Shown here piece by piece: positions 43,356-51,879 of a DNA stretch of 64,000 nt (position 1 is the first letter of the stretch; every line of letters starts with the position of its first letter). This stretch comes from Deltaproteobacteria bacterium (GTDB lineage Bacteria > Myxococcota_A > Polyangia > HGW-17 > JAJRWW01). The stretch is taken from assembly GCA_029938605.1 (NCBI GenBank), contig JAOZUO010000007.1, positions 1 through 64,000 of the forward strand, read 5' to 3'. The notes under the pieces are model-generated. The model was not told where the DNA came from and made no database searches. It saw only the letters and a program-made list of their open reading frames with translations. Both the position numbers and the translations under genes were made by a program.

Positions 43356-46169
43356 TCACAGGGCGCCGTACAGTACGTAGGTGGCCCAGTGCCGGGGGTG
43401 GCGGGTGGACCGGTGTTTGCGCAGCGCTCGCCCGGCGGCGATCCAGGCGGCGGCCTTGGTCGAGCCTTTGACCAGGGACCGATACAAGGTGGTGAAGAAC
43501 CGGTCCGCCGTGGCGGGACCGGGAGGCGCCAGGGGCAGCACCACGGTACGAGCGCCGGCGAGCAGGAGCGCCCGGGCGGCCCCCTCCTGGCCCTGCCAGT
43601 CGGGTTCACCGCGGCCCAGATCCAGCCCCTCTATGCTCACGAGATCCGCGTCCAGCCGGAGTCCCATGAGCTCCCGCAGCAGCACTATCCCGTCGCTGGC
43701 GGCGTCAGCGGCCAGCACCAATGCGGGCTGGGAGGGGCCCAGGATCCGCGCAGGCAGCAGGAGCCGCGCGGCGAAGTGGAGGCGACGATAATCTGTCAGT
43801 GTGCGCTTGCGAAGGGCGGCCTCCGAGCCCCTGGCCCCCGAGACAATGGTGACCCGCCCCGCCCCCACGGTGCGCACGGCGCCCACAGCGGCTACCAGGC
43901 GCGCGGCGCGATCTCGCGAACCGGGCAAGAACGCCAGCCGGTGTCCACGCGCGATCAGTGCGGCCCTCACGGGGGACGCCGAACCCTGGCCCTGGACGTC
44001 GCCGCTGACCCGCGCCACGGCCAGCAGCTCCTGCTTGGCGTCAGCGCCCCGGGGCGTCGCCTTGAGCTTGAGCCACACCGCCGCCGACGGGATGCGAACA
44101 AAGACGCGACGCTCCCCAAACCACCCCCGCTTCCCCTCGGGCAGGGCCGCGAAGGGCAGGGGCCACAGCGGACCGGACAAGACCAGGTGAACCCGCGTAC
44201 GCCCCGCGAGGATGGCCGACGCCGGAGCGATGAGCCGGCGAAACAGCTCCGCGCCCCGTCTGCGGACCTCGGCCACGCTCGTGTGCCCCGTACCAAACAG
44301 CGCACCGGTGAACCGACGCACGAGCTTGCGCAGCTTGGCCTGCCCCGGCAGATTCACCACGGTGGACTGCTCGTTGTTAAACCCGTACAGCAGCGAGCTG
44401 CGATGGCCCACATGGTAGATGAGCACCGCGCCCTTCTCCGAGATGGCGCCCTTGAGGATCCCCACGCCGACGGGGGCGGGGTGCGCCGCGGCGAAGCGGA
44501 AAGCCCGCCCCTCCAACCGCACCCGCGCGGTGCGGATCCAGATCAGTCGCTTGTACAGGAGCCGCCGCAAGGCGAGACCTACGCCCGGCTCGGCAAGCTG
44601 CTCGGCGATGAATCGCTCCTCCCCGGACAGTCCCCGTACTCGCCTCCGCGCCTGACCACTGTCGGCGAGGCTCGCCCCGGCGCGGGTCAGCAGGTCCACC
44701 AGCCGACGCGCGCGGCTCCGCTCGAAGCTGGCCAAAGCCGCGTCCAGATGCTTGGGGTCCCCGCCTCGACGCCACTGCTTGACGTTGACCCGCGCCAACT
44801 CGTAATAGGCGTTGTCCTCGGCTGCGGGGTCGGCCCCCCCGATGAGATCCAGCCCGGTCTGCACCCTCTCCAGGGCGTTCACGGCGCCTTTGTGGAAGCG
44901 CGCCGCCTTGGATTCGCGATCGAGCAGGGTGTCGCACAGAAACCCGAGCAGGGCGTAGGCCTTCCAGGAAAGCTCCGGCGCCGACACGGCCGAGGCGTGA
45001 TCCAGCGCCCGGGTCAGCTCACCCAATGCATCGGCGGCCTGCCCCATCCGCACCCGGGCCCGGCCCATGAGGATCCGCGCCTCCCCACTGCTGAAGCGAT
45101 CAGACGCCTTCTCCAGCACCACCACGGCCCGTCGCAGAAGCGTCGCTGAGTCCCGAAACCTACGCCGCCGCTGCAGCCCTCGCGCCGCGTCCAGATCCAG
45201 CAGTGCTTCGGCGTAGTCGTCGCCCAGTTCCCGAAGGCTGCGGCGGGCAACATCCCGCTGCCGACGCGCCGCACCGTAGTCACCCCAGGAATCCAGAGCC
45301 CGGGCGAAGTGCCACGCCGCCTTGGCGTGTCGACGATGGGCTCGGGCTTTGGCCAGCTGCCGGAGCGCCTGCCCGAAGTCCCGCTTGGCCGCGCCCCGAT
45401 CTCCCACCGTCACGGCCAGCCGCGCCAGCTCCAGATCGGCCACACCACTTCTCACCAGGCGCCCCTTGGCCGCGAACCCCATCTGCGCGATACCCAGAAA
45501 CCGTCGGGCCCGCCGGTAGTCCGCGATCAGGGCGAAGCCCCGTCCCGCGGCCATGGCGGCCCGGGCGGCGGCCACCGAACGCAGCCCCCCCACCAACGTC
45601 ACGACCTGCCCCAACCCCTCCACCGCGGCGCTAAGATTGCCCCGACGGGCCGCCACGCCTGCCTGCCGGGCAATGGCCCGGGCCCGCAGGGAACGCAAAC
45701 CCGCCCCCGTGGCGGACACCTCGGCCCTTTTGTACTGGCGTACGGCCAAATCGAGCTGCCCCGTACCGCGGTACAGATCCCCCAGCGCTGCGTGGGCCTG
45801 AGCCATCCTTGGGAGGTTGTTGACCTTCTGGGCCCGCGCCAGCTCCTGGCCAAGCACCGCCCGGCCCACCGCCAGACGCCCCCGAGACAGGGTCACCCGG
45901 GACAATGCCAGGGCGGCCCGAAATTGCAGGGCGTCCTCCCCACGTCCGCGAGCCCCCCGAAGCACCTTGACCCAGAGTCGCTCCGCCCTGGCGAGGCGCC
46001 CTACCCGATCCGCCTTCTGAGCCGCCTCCAGCAACGCCTTGGGATCGACGGGGTCTCCGGGACGCGCGGTCCGGGGGCAGCTCGTCCACAACCCCACCAG
46101 CGCGCACGCCAGCGCCGCCCTCCCCCAGGGGTACCGTCCAACTCGTGGGTAGATGTCACGTTGGATCAC
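43356..46169 (-). CDS. TPR-CHAT protein with degraded protease active site
   Basis: ~937-residue predicted lipoprotein. GTG 46169 gives a signal-like N-terminus with a Cys in VGLWTSC; the longer frame upstream overlaps the divergent Sel1 gene. Residues ~40-560 are TPR-like helical repeats (ALxxALxDLYRGTGQLDLAVRQYKRA-type). The C-terminal ~350 residues are a CHAT (caspase-like) domain ending WATYVLYGAL. The catalytic His region reads RRLHFAARLLL rather than HFAxHG, and the position normally holding SACxTG reads VSIEGLDLGRG, so the catalytic Cys is missing. Probably a binding or scaffolding protein rather than a protease. Confidence 0.8.
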   Translation of the reverse strand: MIQRDIYPRVGRYPWGRAALACALVGLWTSCPRTARPGDPVDPKALLEAAQKADRVGRLARAERLWVKVLRGARGRGEDALQFRAALALSRVTLSRGRLAVGRAVLGQELARAQKVNNLPRMAQAHAALGDLYRGTGQLDLAVRQYKRAEVSATGAGLRSLRARAIARQAGVAARRGNLSAAVEGLGQVVTLVGGLRSVAAARAAMAAGRGFALIADYRRARRFLGIAQMGFAAKGRLVRSGVADLELARLAVTVGDRGAAKRDFGQALRQLAKARAHRRHAKAAWHFARALDSWGDYGAARRQRDVARRSLRELGDDYAEALLDLDAARGLQRRRRFRDSATLLRRAVVVLEKASDRFSSGEARILMGRARVRMGQAADALGELTRALDHASAVSAPELSWKAYALLGFLCDTLLDRESKAARFHKGAVNALERVQTGLDLIGGADPAAEDNAYYELARVNVKQWRRGGDPKHLDAALASFERSRARRLVDLLTRAGASLADSGQARRRVRGLSGEERFIAEQLAEPGVGLALRRLLYKRLIWIRTARVRLEGRAFRFAAAHPAPVGVGILKGAISEKGAVLIYHVGHRSSLLYGFNNEQSTVVNLPGQAKLRKLVRRFTGALFGTGHTSVAEVRRRGAELFRRLIAPASAILAGRTRVHLVLSGPLWPLPFAALPEGKRGWFGERRVFVRIPSAAVWLKLKATPRGADAKQELLAVARVSGDVQGQGSASPVRAALIARGHRLAFLPGSRDRAARLVAAVGAVRTVGAGRVTIVSGARGSEAALRKRTLTDYRRLHFAARLLLPARILGPSQPALVLAADAASDGIVLLRELMGLRLDADLVSIEGLDLGRGEPDWQGQEGAARALLLAGARTVVLPLAPPGPATADRFFTTLYRSLVKGSTKAAAWIAAGRALRKHRSTRHPRHWATYVLYGAL

Positions 46170-46260
46170 ATCCGTGATTATGCGCCTACACAGGCCCGGG
46201 CCGCAAACTGGATCTGACCAGCTCAACGTGCCACTATGGAAACCATACGTAGGAAACGCC

Positions 46261-46824
46261 ATGCGGAAAACGACCCTGGTGCTGCTCTTGGTCGGACTCG
46301 GAACGACCAGCCACTGTAACGGAACGAACCCGTCAACGCCCCGCCGTGCCCGAAGCGGAAACGTGAACGAGGTCGCCGCCTGCAACGACGGATCGGCGGC
46401 GGCTTGCCACGCCATCGGCTTGAAGTGGGCCAAAGCCAAGAACCACCCCCAGTCCAAGTTTCAGTCTTGGAAGCACTTCAAGATGGCCTGCGAAGGCGGC
46501 CACGCTCCCGGATGCCTCCAGCTCAAGAAGCTCAACGAGGCCGCCTGCTTCGACGGCCTGGCCAAGGGATGCTTGAACCTCGGCGAGCTCTACCGCCTCG
46601 GCAAAAAGGGGATCCCCGCGAACCTGACCCTGGCGCGTCGCTACCTCTGGACCGCTTGCCGGGATGGTGTGGCCCGGGCCTGCTACGAGCTGGGAGTGCT
46701 GTGGAACCAGGGCGGCGGCGGTCCCCTCAACGCCCGTAAGGCGCGATCCTTCTTCCGCAAGGCCTGCCGCGGCGGCTGGGACGCGGCCTGCGCTAGGCTG
46801 CCCCGGGGCGGGCGCCGACGATAG
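46261..46824 (+). CDS. Sel1/Hcp-like Cys-rich repeat lipoprotein
   Basis: 187 residues with a signal peptide (TTLVLLLVGLGTTSHC) ending in a likely lipidated Cys. It has about four Sel1-like repeats: AACNDGSAAACHAIGLKW, MACEGGHAPGCLQL, AACFDGLAKGCLNLGELY, TACRDGVARACYELGVLW. The paired Cys spaced seven residues apart matches the Helicobacter cysteine-rich (Hcp) SLR type, with disulfide-linked helices. Divergent from the CHAT gene, 91 bases between starts. GTAGGAAAC precedes the ATG. Likely a periplasmic or surface scaffold. Confidence 0.8.
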   Translation: MRKTTLVLLLVGLGTTSHCNGTNPSTPRRARSGNVNEVAACNDGSAAACHAIGLKWAKAKNHPQSKFQSWKHFKMACEGGHAPGCLQLKKLNEAACFDGLAKGCLNLGELYRLGKKGIPANLTLARRYLWTACRDGVARACYELGVLWNQGGGGPLNARKARSFFRKACRGGWDAACARLPRGGRRR

Positions 46825-46856: not shown

Positions 46857-49259
46857 TCATCGCGGTCGTTGGTGGCAGGGATGGTCCGGCATATCGGGAG
46901 GGCAGAACGCGCGCTCAGCGTCCTTCATGAGACGCTTGGCCTTGTCGAGCAAATCACCAGGATCCACCGACACCCCTGGCGGGAGGTCTGGGTGAGGACG
47001 GCTCCTCGCTCGACGCCCGGAGAAAGCCGGTCCCGAACGCGGGCGTCTGGAGGGGCGTACGAGGGGTCCACGGCGCGAACGCATGGAGGCGTGAGAGACA
47101 CCTGCGGGGTTCGGGCGAGGCGAGAAGGAGGCCGAGCCTTTTGATGCCGGCTTTCGACTTCCGCCAACGGTGGACGGAATGGCCACCGGCGCCTGACGCA
47201 GTAACTCTTTGGACGAAGGTGAAACCGCTGGGACCACAGGGTGCACCAGCTCCCGCCCGGCGGGGCCGGCAGGGACGGAAAACCACTGCCTCGAGATCCA
47301 GACGCCCGCCAGGAGCGTACCGACCAGGGCCAGCAATCCCACCAGCCCCCAGCCGAGTCGCTTGGAAAACGCTCCCGTCTTCCCTGGGCGCCGCTTCGCC
47401 GCCTCCTCCCGGGTTTCGAGACCTGCCTCCTCTCGGGTTTTGAGACCTGCCTCCACCCGGGTTTCGAGACCTGCCTCCACCCGGGTTTCGAGACCTGCCT
47501 CCTCCCGGGGATCGAATCCCGCCGGCGAAGCTCTCTGAAGGTCCTTCACCAGTTGGGCGCAGGACCGAAAACGATCCGCCGGGTTGGAGGCCAACCCTCG
47601 GCTCACGGCGGCAATAAACGCAGGAGGGAGGTCAGGTCGCAAGGTCTCCAGGGGGCGAATGCTCCCGCTGGCCACGTTCTCCATGGTCTGGAGTATCTGC
47701 TCCTCGGTACAGCTCCCCCGACCCGCCTCACCCGGATACTGCCCCGTGACCTGGCGGTAGACCAGCGCCGCGAGCGCCCACTGGTCAGTGGCAGCGGTGA
47801 TCTCTTCGCCCACCAGTTGCTCCGGCGCCTCTCCCCCTGGAGTTCCCACTGTGAATCCGGTGCGGGTGAACCAGCTCTCTCCCAATCGGGCGATGCCAAA
47901 GTCAATGAGCACGGCTGTCCCATCGGTCCGAATGAGGATGTTCCGGGCAGTCACATCGCGATGAACCACTCCCTCGGTGTGCACAGCGTCCAGGGCGCCG
48001 GCGATCCCTTTCAACGCCTCCAGCACTTGCCGCCAGGTCATGTCCGAGACCTTGTCAGCCAGGCTGGAGCCCTCCACCACCTCCAACACGCAGTAGGCGG
48101 ACGAAGCCCACTGCCCCACCGCGCGGATCCGAACCACATTGGGATGACGCAGGCGGGTGAGGATCTCGCACTCGCTCAGGAAGCGCCCCTCCTGCTCGCG
48201 AACCATGTCCCGGGTGACTCCAGGGAGTTGTTGCAGCATCTTCACCGCCACCTGTCCGCCCAAGCGGAGATCCTCAGCTCGATAGACTACAGCCATTCCC
48301 CCTTGACCCAGACAGGCCAAGACCTCGTATCGGTCGTCTATTACCTCCCCCGGGGACAGGCGGGTCGCCTCTTCCCACTGGGTGTCCATAAGCGCCTGGA
48401 GAAGCTGGGCCCCCGTGGGAAAGCGCCGGGCGGGATCCGGCTCCAGCGCCTGGGAAATGATCCGGCTCAGGGACTCGGAAACCCCCGCCTCCCGCCCCCG
48501 CTCGGTGGTGTGGAGGAAGACAGGCCGACCTTCGGCGTCCAGGGTGGGTGCAGTGCCCGAGAGCATCTCATGGGCCACCACCGCTGCGGAGTAGACGTCC
48601 AGGGTGGGGTGCGGGAAAGGCGGCTTGGTCCCACCCACCTCCGGAGCCATGTACTTGGGTGTTCCAGCAACGATGGGCGTGGCATTCTGGGCGCCTACGC
48701 GAGTGTCCCAGGCGATGCCGAAGTCCAGAAGCCGCAGCCTGGGACCGTCATCCATCAGCTCTTGCGACTCCTCCAGATAGATATTCTGGGGCTTGACGTC
48801 GCGGTGAACAATGCCGACGCTGTGCGCCGCCCCGAGCGCCTGAAGGAGCTGGATCACCAGGGGTTGAACCTCGGGCACGGTCATTGGGTTCCCCTGCCGG
48901 ATGCGCTGGTCCAGGGTCTGCCCTCGAAGCAGGGGCATTACAAAGAACGGGGGGTCGTCAGACGGAAAGAGCTCGTGGATCTCCACCACATGCTCACTCC
49001 GGAGACGGCGGGCGATCATCGCTTCGTGGACAAATCGCTGGCGCCGCTCCTCCTGGTGACAGCCGGGAAGCGGAAGGATCTTCAGCGCCACCCAAGACCC
49101 CAAGACAGAATCCTCGGCGCGCCAGATTTCGCTCATCGCTCCTTTGCCCACCCGATCCACCAGGCGAAATCGTTGGGCCAGCACGACACCGGGGCGCAGG
49201 GGGTGCTCCTCGCCGGTTGCGTCGGGAGGGTGAGATGGCCCATGGTCCGCCGCGCTCAT
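46857..49259 (-). CDS. Transmembrane protein with two Ser/Thr kinase domains
   Basis: 800 residues. Kinase 1 (~25-290): GKGAMSEIWRAED, HRDVKPQNIYL (~148), DFGIAWD (~178). Kinase 2 (~305-560): GQGGMAVVYRAED, HRDVTARNILI (~431), DFGIARLG (~453), EAPEQLVG. The second catalytic loop has HRDVTARN, lacking the usual Lys and resembling tyrosine-kinase loops. Next are four to five copies of AGLETRVE encoded by 24-bp DNA repeats (47403-47519), a transmembrane helix (~633-655) and an outside ~130-residue Arg/Pro/Ser-rich tail with two Cys near the end. ATG 49259 follows GAAAGGTGATC. Confidence 0.9.
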   Translation of the reverse strand: MSAADHGPSHPPDATGEEHPLRPGVVLAQRFRLVDRVGKGAMSEIWRAEDSVLGSWVALKILPLPGCHQEERRQRFVHEAMIARRLRSEHVVEIHELFPSDDPPFFVMPLLRGQTLDQRIRQGNPMTVPEVQPLVIQLLQALGAAHSVGIVHRDVKPQNIYLEESQELMDDGPRLRLLDFGIAWDTRVGAQNATPIVAGTPKYMAPEVGGTKPPFPHPTLDVYSAAVVAHEMLSGTAPTLDAEGRPVFLHTTERGREAGVSESLSRIISQALEPDPARRFPTGAQLLQALMDTQWEEATRLSPGEVIDDRYEVLACLGQGGMAVVYRAEDLRLGGQVAVKMLQQLPGVTRDMVREQEGRFLSECEILTRLRHPNVVRIRAVGQWASSAYCVLEVVEGSSLADKVSDMTWRQVLEALKGIAGALDAVHTEGVVHRDVTARNILIRTDGTAVLIDFGIARLGESWFTRTGFTVGTPGGEAPEQLVGEEITAATDQWALAALVYRQVTGQYPGEAGRGSCTEEQILQTMENVASGSIRPLETLRPDLPPAFIAAVSRGLASNPADRFRSCAQLVKDLQRASPAGFDPREEAGLETRVEAGLETRVEAGLKTREEAGLETREEAAKRRPGKTGAFSKRLGWGLVGLLALVGTLLAGVWISRQWFSVPAGPAGRELVHPVVPAVSPSSKELLRQAPVAIPSTVGGSRKPASKGSASFSPRPNPAGVSHASMRSRRGPLVRPSRRPRSGPAFSGRRARSRPHPDLPPGVSVDPGDLLDKAKRLMKDAERAFCPPDMPDHPCHQRPR
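47403..47519. repeat. 24-bp tandem repeat, about five copies, in tandem-kinase gene
   Basis: Units around CCGGGTTTCGAGACCTGCCT encode the AGLETRVE/REEAGLETR juxtamembrane repeat on the minus strand. In-frame period. Confidence 0.9.
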
Positions 49260-49460: not shown

Positions 49461-50207
49461 TCAGAACCCCATACCGGTCATGCAGACGCCGTAGCTGCCC
49501 GGCATGGCTCCCATGCAGTCCAAGCCCGACTGACAATTGTCGTTGTTGAGACATAGCGAACCCATCTGACCATCGCTGCACATCCCCACCGTGTCCGTGG
49601 CATTCCTGATACAGCTCCAGTTGGTGGGACAGTGGTCCGGGGTCTGGCAGAGGCCGGTGAGGCACATGTAGGCCTTGTTGGGGATAATGCCCGTGTTGCA
49701 CACCGCCCCGTTCATGCCCACCGGGCACTGGCGGTTCTGGTCGCAGGCCGGAAAGGAGTAGCAGGCCGTGGACTCGTCTTCCTCTTCCAGGCACAAGGAG
49801 TAGTCGTCACAGCCGTCCATTCCGTCTAGTCGAGGGGTGCATTGGGTGGGCACCGGAGGGGTACTGCAGAACCCGTCCTTGCAGATCTGCCCTTCGGCAC
49901 AGGGTGTGTCCGGGCAGGTGGACACAGTGCGGTTGTGGCACAGCATATCGAACTCGGTATCACAGTACTGATCAGCGGCGCAGTCATCATTGCTGGTACA
50001 ACCCAGGGCGCACAGCCCGTTCCAACAGAACTGTCCGGAGGGACAGGGATCCGAGGAGCTGCAGAAAGCCCCTTTAATAACTGAGCCATCGTTGTTTGCT
50101 TCGCCCCCTCCTACGATGCAGGCCCCCAGGCCACAGAATGTCAGAACGGCAACAGCGGAGAGCAGAATCTGGAACCTGCTCCTGTTTTGGGGTTTGGATG
50201 TCTTCAT
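49461..50207 (-). CDS. Cys-rich predicted lipoprotein
   Basis: 248 residues. ATG 50207 follows GAAAGGAGACC. The signal peptide ends FCGLGAC, a lipobox. The mature region has ~26 Cys in short repeating modules such as CPSGQFCWNGLCALGC, CAADQYC, CAEGQICKDGFCS, a pattern widespread in myxobacterial surface lipoproteins. Upstream of the tandem-kinase gene on the same strand with a 201-bp gap, so cotranscription is possible but unproven. Confidence 0.78.
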   Translation of the reverse strand: MKTSKPQNRSRFQILLSAVAVLTFCGLGACIVGGGEANNDGSVIKGAFCSSSDPCPSGQFCWNGLCALGCTSNDDCAADQYCDTEFDMLCHNRTVSTCPDTPCAEGQICKDGFCSTPPVPTQCTPRLDGMDGCDDYSLCLEEEDESTACYSFPACDQNRQCPVGMNGAVCNTGIIPNKAYMCLTGLCQTPDHCPTNWSCIRNATDTVGMCSDGQMGSLCLNNDNCQSGLDCMGAMPGSYGVCMTGMGF

Positions 50208-50277
50208 GTCTCGGTCTCCTTTCAAAGGTTGGAAGCGGTCGGCCACGGTCTAGTACATACGCGAAAACCAGAGAAAC

Positions 50278-50313
50278 ATGCATAAAAAATGCTGTTCTTA
50301 TGCATAAAAAATG
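50278..50313. promoter_or_regulatory. Direct-repeat operator candidate, 22-bp spacing
   Basis: ATGCATAAAAAATG occurs at 50278-50291 and 50300-50313, i.e. 22 bp or about two helical turns apart, in the AT-rich region between the divergent Cys-rich lipoprotein and the RHH-like gene. An imperfect CTTATG/CATAAG inverted repeat (50297-50320) overlaps the second copy. Confidence 0.5.
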
Positions 50314-50379
50314 ACATAAGAAACACCATGTCGACGTTTCGTGTGTAAATTCAGGCCCTTTGAGGTATAAATCTCCCCT

Positions 50380-51174
50380 ATGGCGCGCGGCCCTAAATCC
50401 AGATCCCATTCCGGGGAAAGAGCCCGCCAAATGCGACTCCATCTGAGCCGGGGTGTGTCTCAAGCTCTGGAGCAGGAGGCGCTCCTGATACAGTCAGAGC
50501 CCGCCGGGTTCTTCAGAATGTTGCTCCGGAGGGATCTGGGACTACAGAGAATGGAACGGGCTCCTTTGGCGGCGGTCCCTCCCCCGCTTCATGATCCCAA
50601 GCCCACCAAAGAACCCTTTGTGGTGCTGCTTAGTCCCAGGCTGCGGGGCCATCTCATGAAAGTTTGTAACTTGCTGGGCAGCGGCTCTCCCTCCACCGTA
50701 GCCAGTCACCTGATCCTGGATTGGACGGGGTGCTCCCCCCTCCCGCGCCAGGTGGTGCTCCCCATCGTGCCCAGCGCACCGCCCCCTCCGCGCTCCCCGG
50801 GTCGGGGTCGCTCGCGATCTCAGCCCACCAAGATTCAAATGCTCTCCTTGGCTGTCGGGGTGGTGGAGATGCTCCGCAAGGAGTCAGCGACCATGGAGAT
50901 TCGGCACACGGAGCTGCTGCGGAACCTGCTCAGAGTCAAGATGGGCGTGAGCACCCTTCAACGCACGCCCGGAGCGCCCGTTCACCCTTTCCTTGAGGAC
51001 CGGGACCATCCCAAGAGCTCCTACCGAATTCATCTGACCTTGGATCAGGTAGCCCTCATACAAGAAGTCTCTGTCCAGTTGGGGGGCGGCGAAAAATCCA
51101 CCATTGTCTCCCATCTCATCCTGGATTTTCTGGGGATCTCCCCGTTGGGCCCCGGACCAACCACGGCTGGGTAG
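50380..51174 (+). CDS. Single-chain protein with four RHH-like units
   Basis: 264 residues, unknown family. Two ~105-residue halves (about 18-123 and 150-256) are internal duplicates. Their ends align as VASHLILDWTGCSPL and IVSHLILDFLGISPL, and their first parts as FFRMLLRRDLGL and LLRNLLRVKMGV. Each half contains two segments with the strand-helix-helix layout of ribbon-helix-helix DNA-binding proteins (18-55, 78-117, 150-190, 213-253), joined by basic, Pro-rich linkers. A single chain with four such units would mimic an RHH tetramer. No ribosome site; a TATAAA box lies eight bases before the ATG. RHH assignment is inference. Confidence 0.6.
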   Translation: MARGPKSRSHSGERARQMRLHLSRGVSQALEQEALLIQSEPAGFFRMLLRRDLGLQRMERAPLAAVPPPLHDPKPTKEPFVVLLSPRLRGHLMKVCNLLGSGSPSTVASHLILDWTGCSPLPRQVVLPIVPSAPPPPRSPGRGRSRSQPTKIQMLSLAVGVVEMLRKESATMEIRHTELLRNLLRVKMGVSTLQRTPGAPVHPFLEDRDHPKSSYRIHLTLDQVALIQEVSVQLGGGEKSTIVSHLILDFLGISPLGPGPTTAG

Positions 51175-51194
51175 GCTCACGGCTGGGTAGGCTC
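51163..51194. repeat. 16-bp tandem duplication at gene end
   Basis: ACGGCTGGGTAGGCTC occurs at 51163-51178 and 51179-51194. The first copy includes the TAG stop of the RHH-like gene. Confidence 0.85.
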
Positions 51195-51209: not shown

Positions 51210-51584
51210 TCAGTCGGACTCGTCGTCGGGATTCTGCGCGTTTTTCAGTTCGGTGGCTTCGTGTCGCAGTAGCGCGAGTCCGCCCTCGATAAGATCCCAG
51301 GCGATGGCATCATCGATGGACGCATATGCATGAATCAGGATGTTGCGGAAAACGACGATTCGCGCACGGTGGGTCAGCCGGTCGGCGATCTCCGGATGAT
51401 GATGCGAGAGCTGGGAGACGGCCTCACCGATGATGGTGAACTGGCGCTCTACGCCAGAGCGCACGAGATCGTTACTCCGGTACGTCTCGAGCGAGATCCC
51501 CTTCGTAAACTTCGCAATCCGATCCGCTGCCTGAATCACATCAAACAGGTAGGCGCGCGGATCACGCGGCATAGAGAGGCTCAT
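51210..51584 (-). CDS. hepT: HepT-like toxin (DUF86)
   Basis: 124-residue HEPN-fold protein. The family active-site motif RNILIHAY (R-X4-H-X-Y) is present near residue 85-92. HepT acts as an RNase-type toxin neutralised by its partner MntA, which AMPylates the tyrosine in this motif in characterised systems. The start (ATG 51584 or 51572) overlaps the end of mntA. Coding DNA looks lower in GC than flanking genes. Confidence 0.9.
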   Translation of the reverse strand: MSLSMPRDPRAYLFDVIQAADRIAKFTKGISLETYRSNDLVRSGVERQFTIIGEAVSQLSHHHPEIADRLTHRARIVVFRNILIHAYASIDDAIAWDLIEGGLALLRHEATELKNAQNPDDESD

Positions 51585-51879
51585 TGTTGGTCTGGATGGT
51601 TTGAAGCACGTATGGATTTTTGATACTTCCAGCGGTAACGAGATCGATGGGGCGCGCGAAAAGATCCTCCAGCGCAGCGAGCAAGCCGAAGTAGGCGTCA
51701 GCAAGCCCTCCGGGTTTCAAGCCGGATCGAAACACCACCAAGAAGTCGAGATCACTGGTCTGCTCATCGAACCCCCCCGTCACCGCCGAGCCGAAGATCG
51801 CCAATGACTCAACCTGGTAGCGCTCGCACAACCTGGTGAGATCAGTACGTCGTTTCTCCACGATGTCGTGAACACTCAT
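51562..51879 (-). CDS. mntA: MntA-like minimal nucleotidyltransferase antitoxin
   Basis: 105-residue polymerase-beta-like nucleotidyltransferase. Motif GSAVTGGFDEQTSDLDFLV gives the GS...DxD active site, with eleven rather than the usual ten residues between. Family members adenylylate HepT and so block it. mntA precedes and overlaps hepT, the standard order. No clear Shine-Dalgarno sequence. A short palindrome GACCCTTAGGGTC lies upstream (51933-51945). Confidence 0.9.
   Translation of the reverse strand: MSVHDIVEKRRTDLTRLCERYQVESLAIFGSAVTGGFDEQTSDLDFLVVFRSGLKPGGLADAYFGLLAALEDLFARPIDLVTAGSIKNPYVLQTIQTNNEPLYAA

Follow-up and report, generated by a model that had tools for sequence, protein, structure and literature searches.

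Ribbon-helix-helix (RHH) regulators usually bind their operators as assemblies of identical short chains. The original prediction for the gene described here also took RHH proteins to be short chains as a rule, which is partly right, but single-chain pseudo-dimers are known as well (F TraY, AvtR, DndE and VirC2). The TraY protein of the F plasmid is a monomer that holds the whole RHH-dimer fold in one polypeptide, with three molecules per relaxosome (PMC12117103). AvtR of Acidianus filamentous virus 6 contains two tandem RHH motifs and a linker and binds DNA as a monomer; it acts on a neighbouring promoter as well as repressing its own gene (PMC5569661). DndE carries tandem RHH in one polypeptide (PMC10853773) and VirC2 has a tandem RHH fold (PMC5425179), and both of these proteins are knotted. 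A literature search, by phrase only, returned no paper on a natural chain of four RHH units. Since single-chain pseudo-dimers are known, such a four-unit chain would be a doubling of that known kind.

The myxobacterial locus lies in a window of 64,000 nucleotides (the whole stretch of DNA that was analysed), from an assembly of 8.56 Mb that is about 92% complete. The best explanation for its 264-amino acid protein, which we hold to be moderately probable, is a covalent pair of TraY/AvtR-like RHH pseudo-dimers that acts as a local autoregulator by binding its own divergent region.

Internal duplication and predicted fold

The gene and its parts are as follows, with the basis of each assignment in parentheses.

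50380..51174, + strand: 264-amino acid protein with two homologous halves, both predicted to be RHH pseudo-dimers within one chain (open reading frame, BLASTP, AF2, Foldseek, profile)
50413..50748, + strand: half 1, residues 12-123, with units 1A (about 16-54) and 1B (about 79-117) (homology to half 2 and profile of the single-half family)
50749..50814, + strand: linker between the halves, about 22-28 residues (around 122-149), rich in Pro, Ser and Arg (sequence; no confident structure)
50815..51171, + strand: half 2, residues 146-264, with units 2A (150-187) and 2B (212-250), beta-alpha-alpha twice (AF2, Foldseek)

The open reading frame is intact, with an ATG start, a TAG stop and in-frame stops shortly upstream. 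G+C makes up 71% of its third codon positions, and of the six frames its own has the top codon-usage score, with one reverse frame only marginally behind; homology is the stronger argument that 50380-51174 is a gene. A 17-bp sequence, CACGGCTGGGTAGGCTC, is repeated at 16-bp spacing at 51162-51194, spanning the stop codon.

An internal duplication had been claimed from the sequence, and this was borne out by BLASTP, in which the two halves share 41 of 116 residues (35% identity, E = 7e-17). Unit 1A pairs with 2A (z 4.8) and unit 1B with 2B (z 14), while a unit-against-unit comparison detected no sequence similarity between the A and B units. Descent from four equal ancestral units is thus not detectable, and duplication at the level of the half alone is supported. 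A helix motif of the second unit, LGxGxxSTxxSHLILDxxGxSPL, is kept in both halves. Identity between the halves at codon positions 1, 2 and 3 is 0.42, 0.56 and 0.34, highest at the second and lowest at the third; the positions that determine the amino acid are kept and the third is near random, which indicates an old duplication under protein-level constraint.

Half 2 is predicted to consist of two RHH units in one polypeptide that folds as a monomer, in the order E-H-H-E-H-H. Modeled alone by AF2 with ten related rows, it reached a pLDDT of 80 and a pTM of 0.73 as a monomer, with elements E5-13, H14-26, H31-42, E67-75, H76-88 and H94-105 in half numbering. The full-length model placed the same half as E150-158, H159-172, H176-187, E212-220, H221-233 and H239-250, with block means of about 85-92 in its structured parts. 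Half 1 was predicted at low confidence and without strands in this model because every single-half row aligned to half 2 and none covered half 1. The prediction of two strand-helix-helix segments per half agrees with the AF2 model of half 2 (proposed at 150-190 and 213-253), while those of half 1 (18-55 and 78-117) are assigned from the 35% identity between the halves and from the profile of its relatives. Four covalent units are supported on the same footing, directly in half 2 and by homology in half 1.

The proposed RHH fold was supported by a Foldseek search of the PDB with the half 2 model. Ranks 1-11 were all chains of the F-plasmid relaxosome, each at probability 1.00, with E from 3.1e-3 to 2.1e-2 and long alignments at an rmsd of 6-8 Å; no PDB match had an E below 0.001, the best being 3.1e-3, and we count these values against the proposed reading. 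The output labels relaxosome entries only and not individual chains, and we read the matched chains (about 102-120 residues) as TraY from their length, their fold and the description of TraY in the structural paper. DndE, AvtR and VirC2 ranked below them, AvtR with a probability of up to 0.85. In the BFVD viral library, matches at probability 1.00 included several archaeal-virus proteins annotated as RHH, and some viral proteins of 270-355 amino acids among the BFVD matches may hold more than one module.

Sequence comparisons gave hints that agree with an RHH fold, each weak alone. The family profile returned just two PDB sequences, both of MetJ, with its strand and first helix aligned (E 0.22, a weak match). 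The model for the antitoxin BrnA (NCBIfam NF047399), itself an RHH protein, was matched weakly by six of 11 family rows, at a best E of 0.0054. In hhalign, unit A was in register with F TraY (E 0.018, probability 2.5), and two F-plasmid controls, TraM (E 0.26) and TraJ (E 0.9), both scored worse. Overall, the RHH fold of half 2 is well supported by modeling, and that of half 1 is inferred from homology to half 2 and to the profile of the relatives.

A family of single-half relatives

The layout had been thought to belong to no named family, and no family in Pfam, NCBIfam, PHROG or PADLOC covers the 264-amino acid protein or reaches its cut-off there, but single-half relatives exist. Matches to KfrA_N and SBBP were short and far below cut-off and were ignored. 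Searches with the full protein gave no match among plasmids, phages, IMG/VR and genome contigs, and matches at chance level in 59 related genomes. IMG/VR also yielded no match to a two-half profile, nor to two single-half proteins used as queries. Across 318 genomes of the class, the best outside match to the two-half profile (E 1.9e-6) was in G136, the metagenome-assembled genome of Myxococcales bacterium isolate palsa_1153, which held several further matches; others were in G135, of the same family as G136. These relatives are about 140-155 amino acids long, with one half each and several copies per genome, and occur in two of the five genomes within the family of G136. They are homologous over the whole half, and to both halves of the 264-amino acid protein.

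A profile built from the single-half relatives alone, with no sequence from the window, finds half 2 at an E of 4.3e-7; across the 379 genomes sampled from the phylum, the profile matched nothing else at E <= 0.001. Against a profile of relatives, half 2 scored 34.5 bits and half 1 20.0 bits, compared with 4.9 bits for the best of 4,000 shuffled halves; as the family was found through its similarity to the halves, the scores are in part circular, and the best guard against this is the specificity of the single-half profile across the 379 genomes. The 264-amino acid protein is a head-to-tail double of proteins of this unnamed single-half family. Alignments A3 and A4 were too divergent for pattern scans. 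One further single-half gene (L047:1809-2123) is near-identical to that of L046 over its first part and diverges abruptly near its end, and is apparently a decayed copy carrying a frame-shift or deletion.

Single-half genes mostly lie near integrase, Replic_Relax or ParB genes. Within a few kilobases of them are genes for phage-type integrases, Replic_Relax, ParB-like, AbiEii-like and HTH_17 proteins. Replic_Relax is a domain of MOBC relaxases (PMC5357655). These surroundings suggest that the single-half family belongs to elements that integrate and may be mobilisable, and the myxobacterial neighbourhoods L046, L048, L049 and L050, which combine integrase, Replic_Relax, ParB and tandem-RHH genes, may represent a family of integrative mobilisable elements that has yet to be described.

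The setting of the 264-amino acid gene differs from this element-like one. Its neighbours encode a kinase, a lipoprotein, a HepT/MntA pair and an adenosine deaminase and are unrelated to conjugation. The Ser/Thr kinase gene (46857-49259, - strand) has two kinase domains and contains 24-bp direct repeats at 47408-47500 that encode EAGLETRE-type repeats; a CHAT-domain protein with TPR-like repeats is encoded at 43356-46457 (- strand). Genes for a HepT-like ribonuclease and an MntA-type nucleotidyltransferase at 51210-51879 (- strand) are convergent with the RHH gene and form an apparent complete toxin-antitoxin pair. Neither of the flanking proteins tried was found in the congener G001 in a check of synteny.

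Candidate operator and proposed regulatory role

Upstream of the RHH gene, the region that separates it from a divergent gene contains a repeat.

49461..50209, - strand: divergent gene for a Cys-rich putative lipoprotein with an LGAC lipobox-like motif (open reading frame; lipobox and start by eye)
50278..50291, + strand: copy 1 of the 14-bp perfect direct repeat ATGCATAAAAAATG, candidate operator site (repeat search, shuffles, genome scan)
50300..50313, + strand: copy 2 of ATGCATAAAAAATG, candidate operator site, 22 bp downstream (same methods)

The repeat sits between the start of the RHH gene and the likely ATG start of the lipoprotein gene, near 50207-50209, in sequence that is A+T-rich (38% G+C at 50247-50379 vs 65% in the window). 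None of 2,000 shuffles reached a repeat length of 14, the maximum being 11, and with up to one mismatch the sequence occurs at only those two places in the assembly. Against the window itself the repeat is less striking: about ten exact direct repeats with a length of 14 bp or more within 60 bp occur there, which puts the chance of one falling in the intergenic region at about 2%. These results are suggestive of a two-site operator and are not proof of one. No close ortholog of the protein that could show conservation of the repeat was found. The single-half genes have upstream repeats and palindromes too, but these vary from gene to gene, do not match ATGCATAAAAAATG and share no motif. A promoter search found no sigma-70-type promoter, which we count against the autoregulator reading.

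We propose a head-to-tail doubling of an RHH protein whose single chain already folded as a pseudo-dimer. In each half, strands A and B would form a single antiparallel ribbon of two strands, with a core built from the helices of the two units, an arrangement shared with F TraY and AvtR. With a full ribbon in each half, one chain would hold two complete ribbon modules for DNA binding, with a flexible Pro/Ser/Arg-rich linker between them, and would be equivalent to a covalent RHH tetramer. A 14-bp repeat at 22-bp spacing fits putative binding to tandem sites. A period of about two helical turns would place both sites on one face of the DNA, and we infer that the linker, at about 22-28 residues, could in principle reach from one to the other. 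The protein would most likely bind the divergent intergenic region bivalently, one half per repeat, and repress the promoter of its own gene, perhaps along with the lipoprotein promoter. The lipoprotein, which has no Pfam family, is a possible regulatory target. A fuller version, in which the protein is a natural covalent RHH tetramer of four non-identical units, with a linker that fixes the spacing so that one molecule reads an asymmetric two-site operator, and with a history in which the DNA-binding protein of a mobile element was doubled and turned into a chromosomal regulator, is put forward tentatively, as somewhat doubtful in its entirety.

Read by eye, strands 1A and 2B turn polar or basic residues outward on the ribbons, and strands 1B and 2A mainly apolar ones. 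With ribbon faces this asymmetric, one half might bind DNA poorly, and it is conceivable, though unlikely, that one half alone binds DNA, probably half 2, which is nearer the family in its profile score, the other being a diverged partner for protein contacts or cooperative oligomerisation. F TraY molecules are in extensive mutual contact on DNA (PMC12117103), which would be in keeping with such a partner. However, the second-unit helix motif is kept in both halves, and both show protein-level constraint.

Another explanation, slightly less probable again, is that the protein is a TraY-type relaxosome or mobilisation accessory, either a remnant of an integrative mobilisable element or recruited from one, that binds an oriT-like site and bends the DNA for a relaxase instead of controlling transcription. 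The F relaxosome is the best structural match and the single-half relatives adjoin integrase and Replic_Relax genes, but the assembly of the window has no Replic_Relax match anywhere, none of its 16 integrase matches is on the contig with the RHH gene, and the neighbouring genes have the other functions listed above. An RHH antitoxin of the BrnA/ParD type, perhaps tied to the adjacent HepT/MntA pair, is very improbable: the BrnA-model matches of the relatives, the convergent HepT-like and nucleotidyltransferase genes next door and an AbiEii-like gene adjoining one relative would favour it, but MntA is the antitoxin of HepT and so that pair is complete without the RHH protein, the convergent genes form no operon, no small toxin open reading frame (no BrnT partner) is coupled to the RHH gene, and the whole 264-amino acid protein does not match the BrnA model.

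Comparison with known tandem RHH proteins

The locus draws attention to a so far undescribed family of myxobacterial proteins with a tandem-RHH fold. Fusing two RHH units, as in TraY, AvtR and DndE, allows the two strands to diverge, and four fused units would allow a longer, asymmetric operator to be read at a fixed spacing and without concentration-dependent assembly. The locus also suggests a route by which a DNA-binding protein of a mobile element may be doubled and then fixed in the chromosome.

DndE and VirC2 resemble the protein in having two RHH units per chain, but each has one module, and DndE works with an ABC ATPase and VirC2 in T-DNA transfer. AvtR is a transcription regulator with tandem RHH in one chain, but it comes from an archaeal virus, has one module and shows no detected sequence similarity to the 264-amino acid protein. 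The single-half Myxococcota family of G136 and G135 also differs in having one module, in its several copies per genome and in its location, mostly near integrase, Replic_Relax or ParB genes. F TraY is the nearest in structure, each half of the protein corresponding to it as two strand-helix-helix units in one chain with one ribbon (Foldseek probability 1.00). By sequence the protein falls outside the TraY family, with no match to Pfam TraY at E <= 10, and its setting is different, as the RHH gene lies outside a conjugation region with no relaxase gene seen nearby. The 264-amino acid protein also differs from TraY in carrying two such modules per chain. The joining of two TraY-like modules in one chain appears to be new, whereas the type of regulator itself appears to be a known one.
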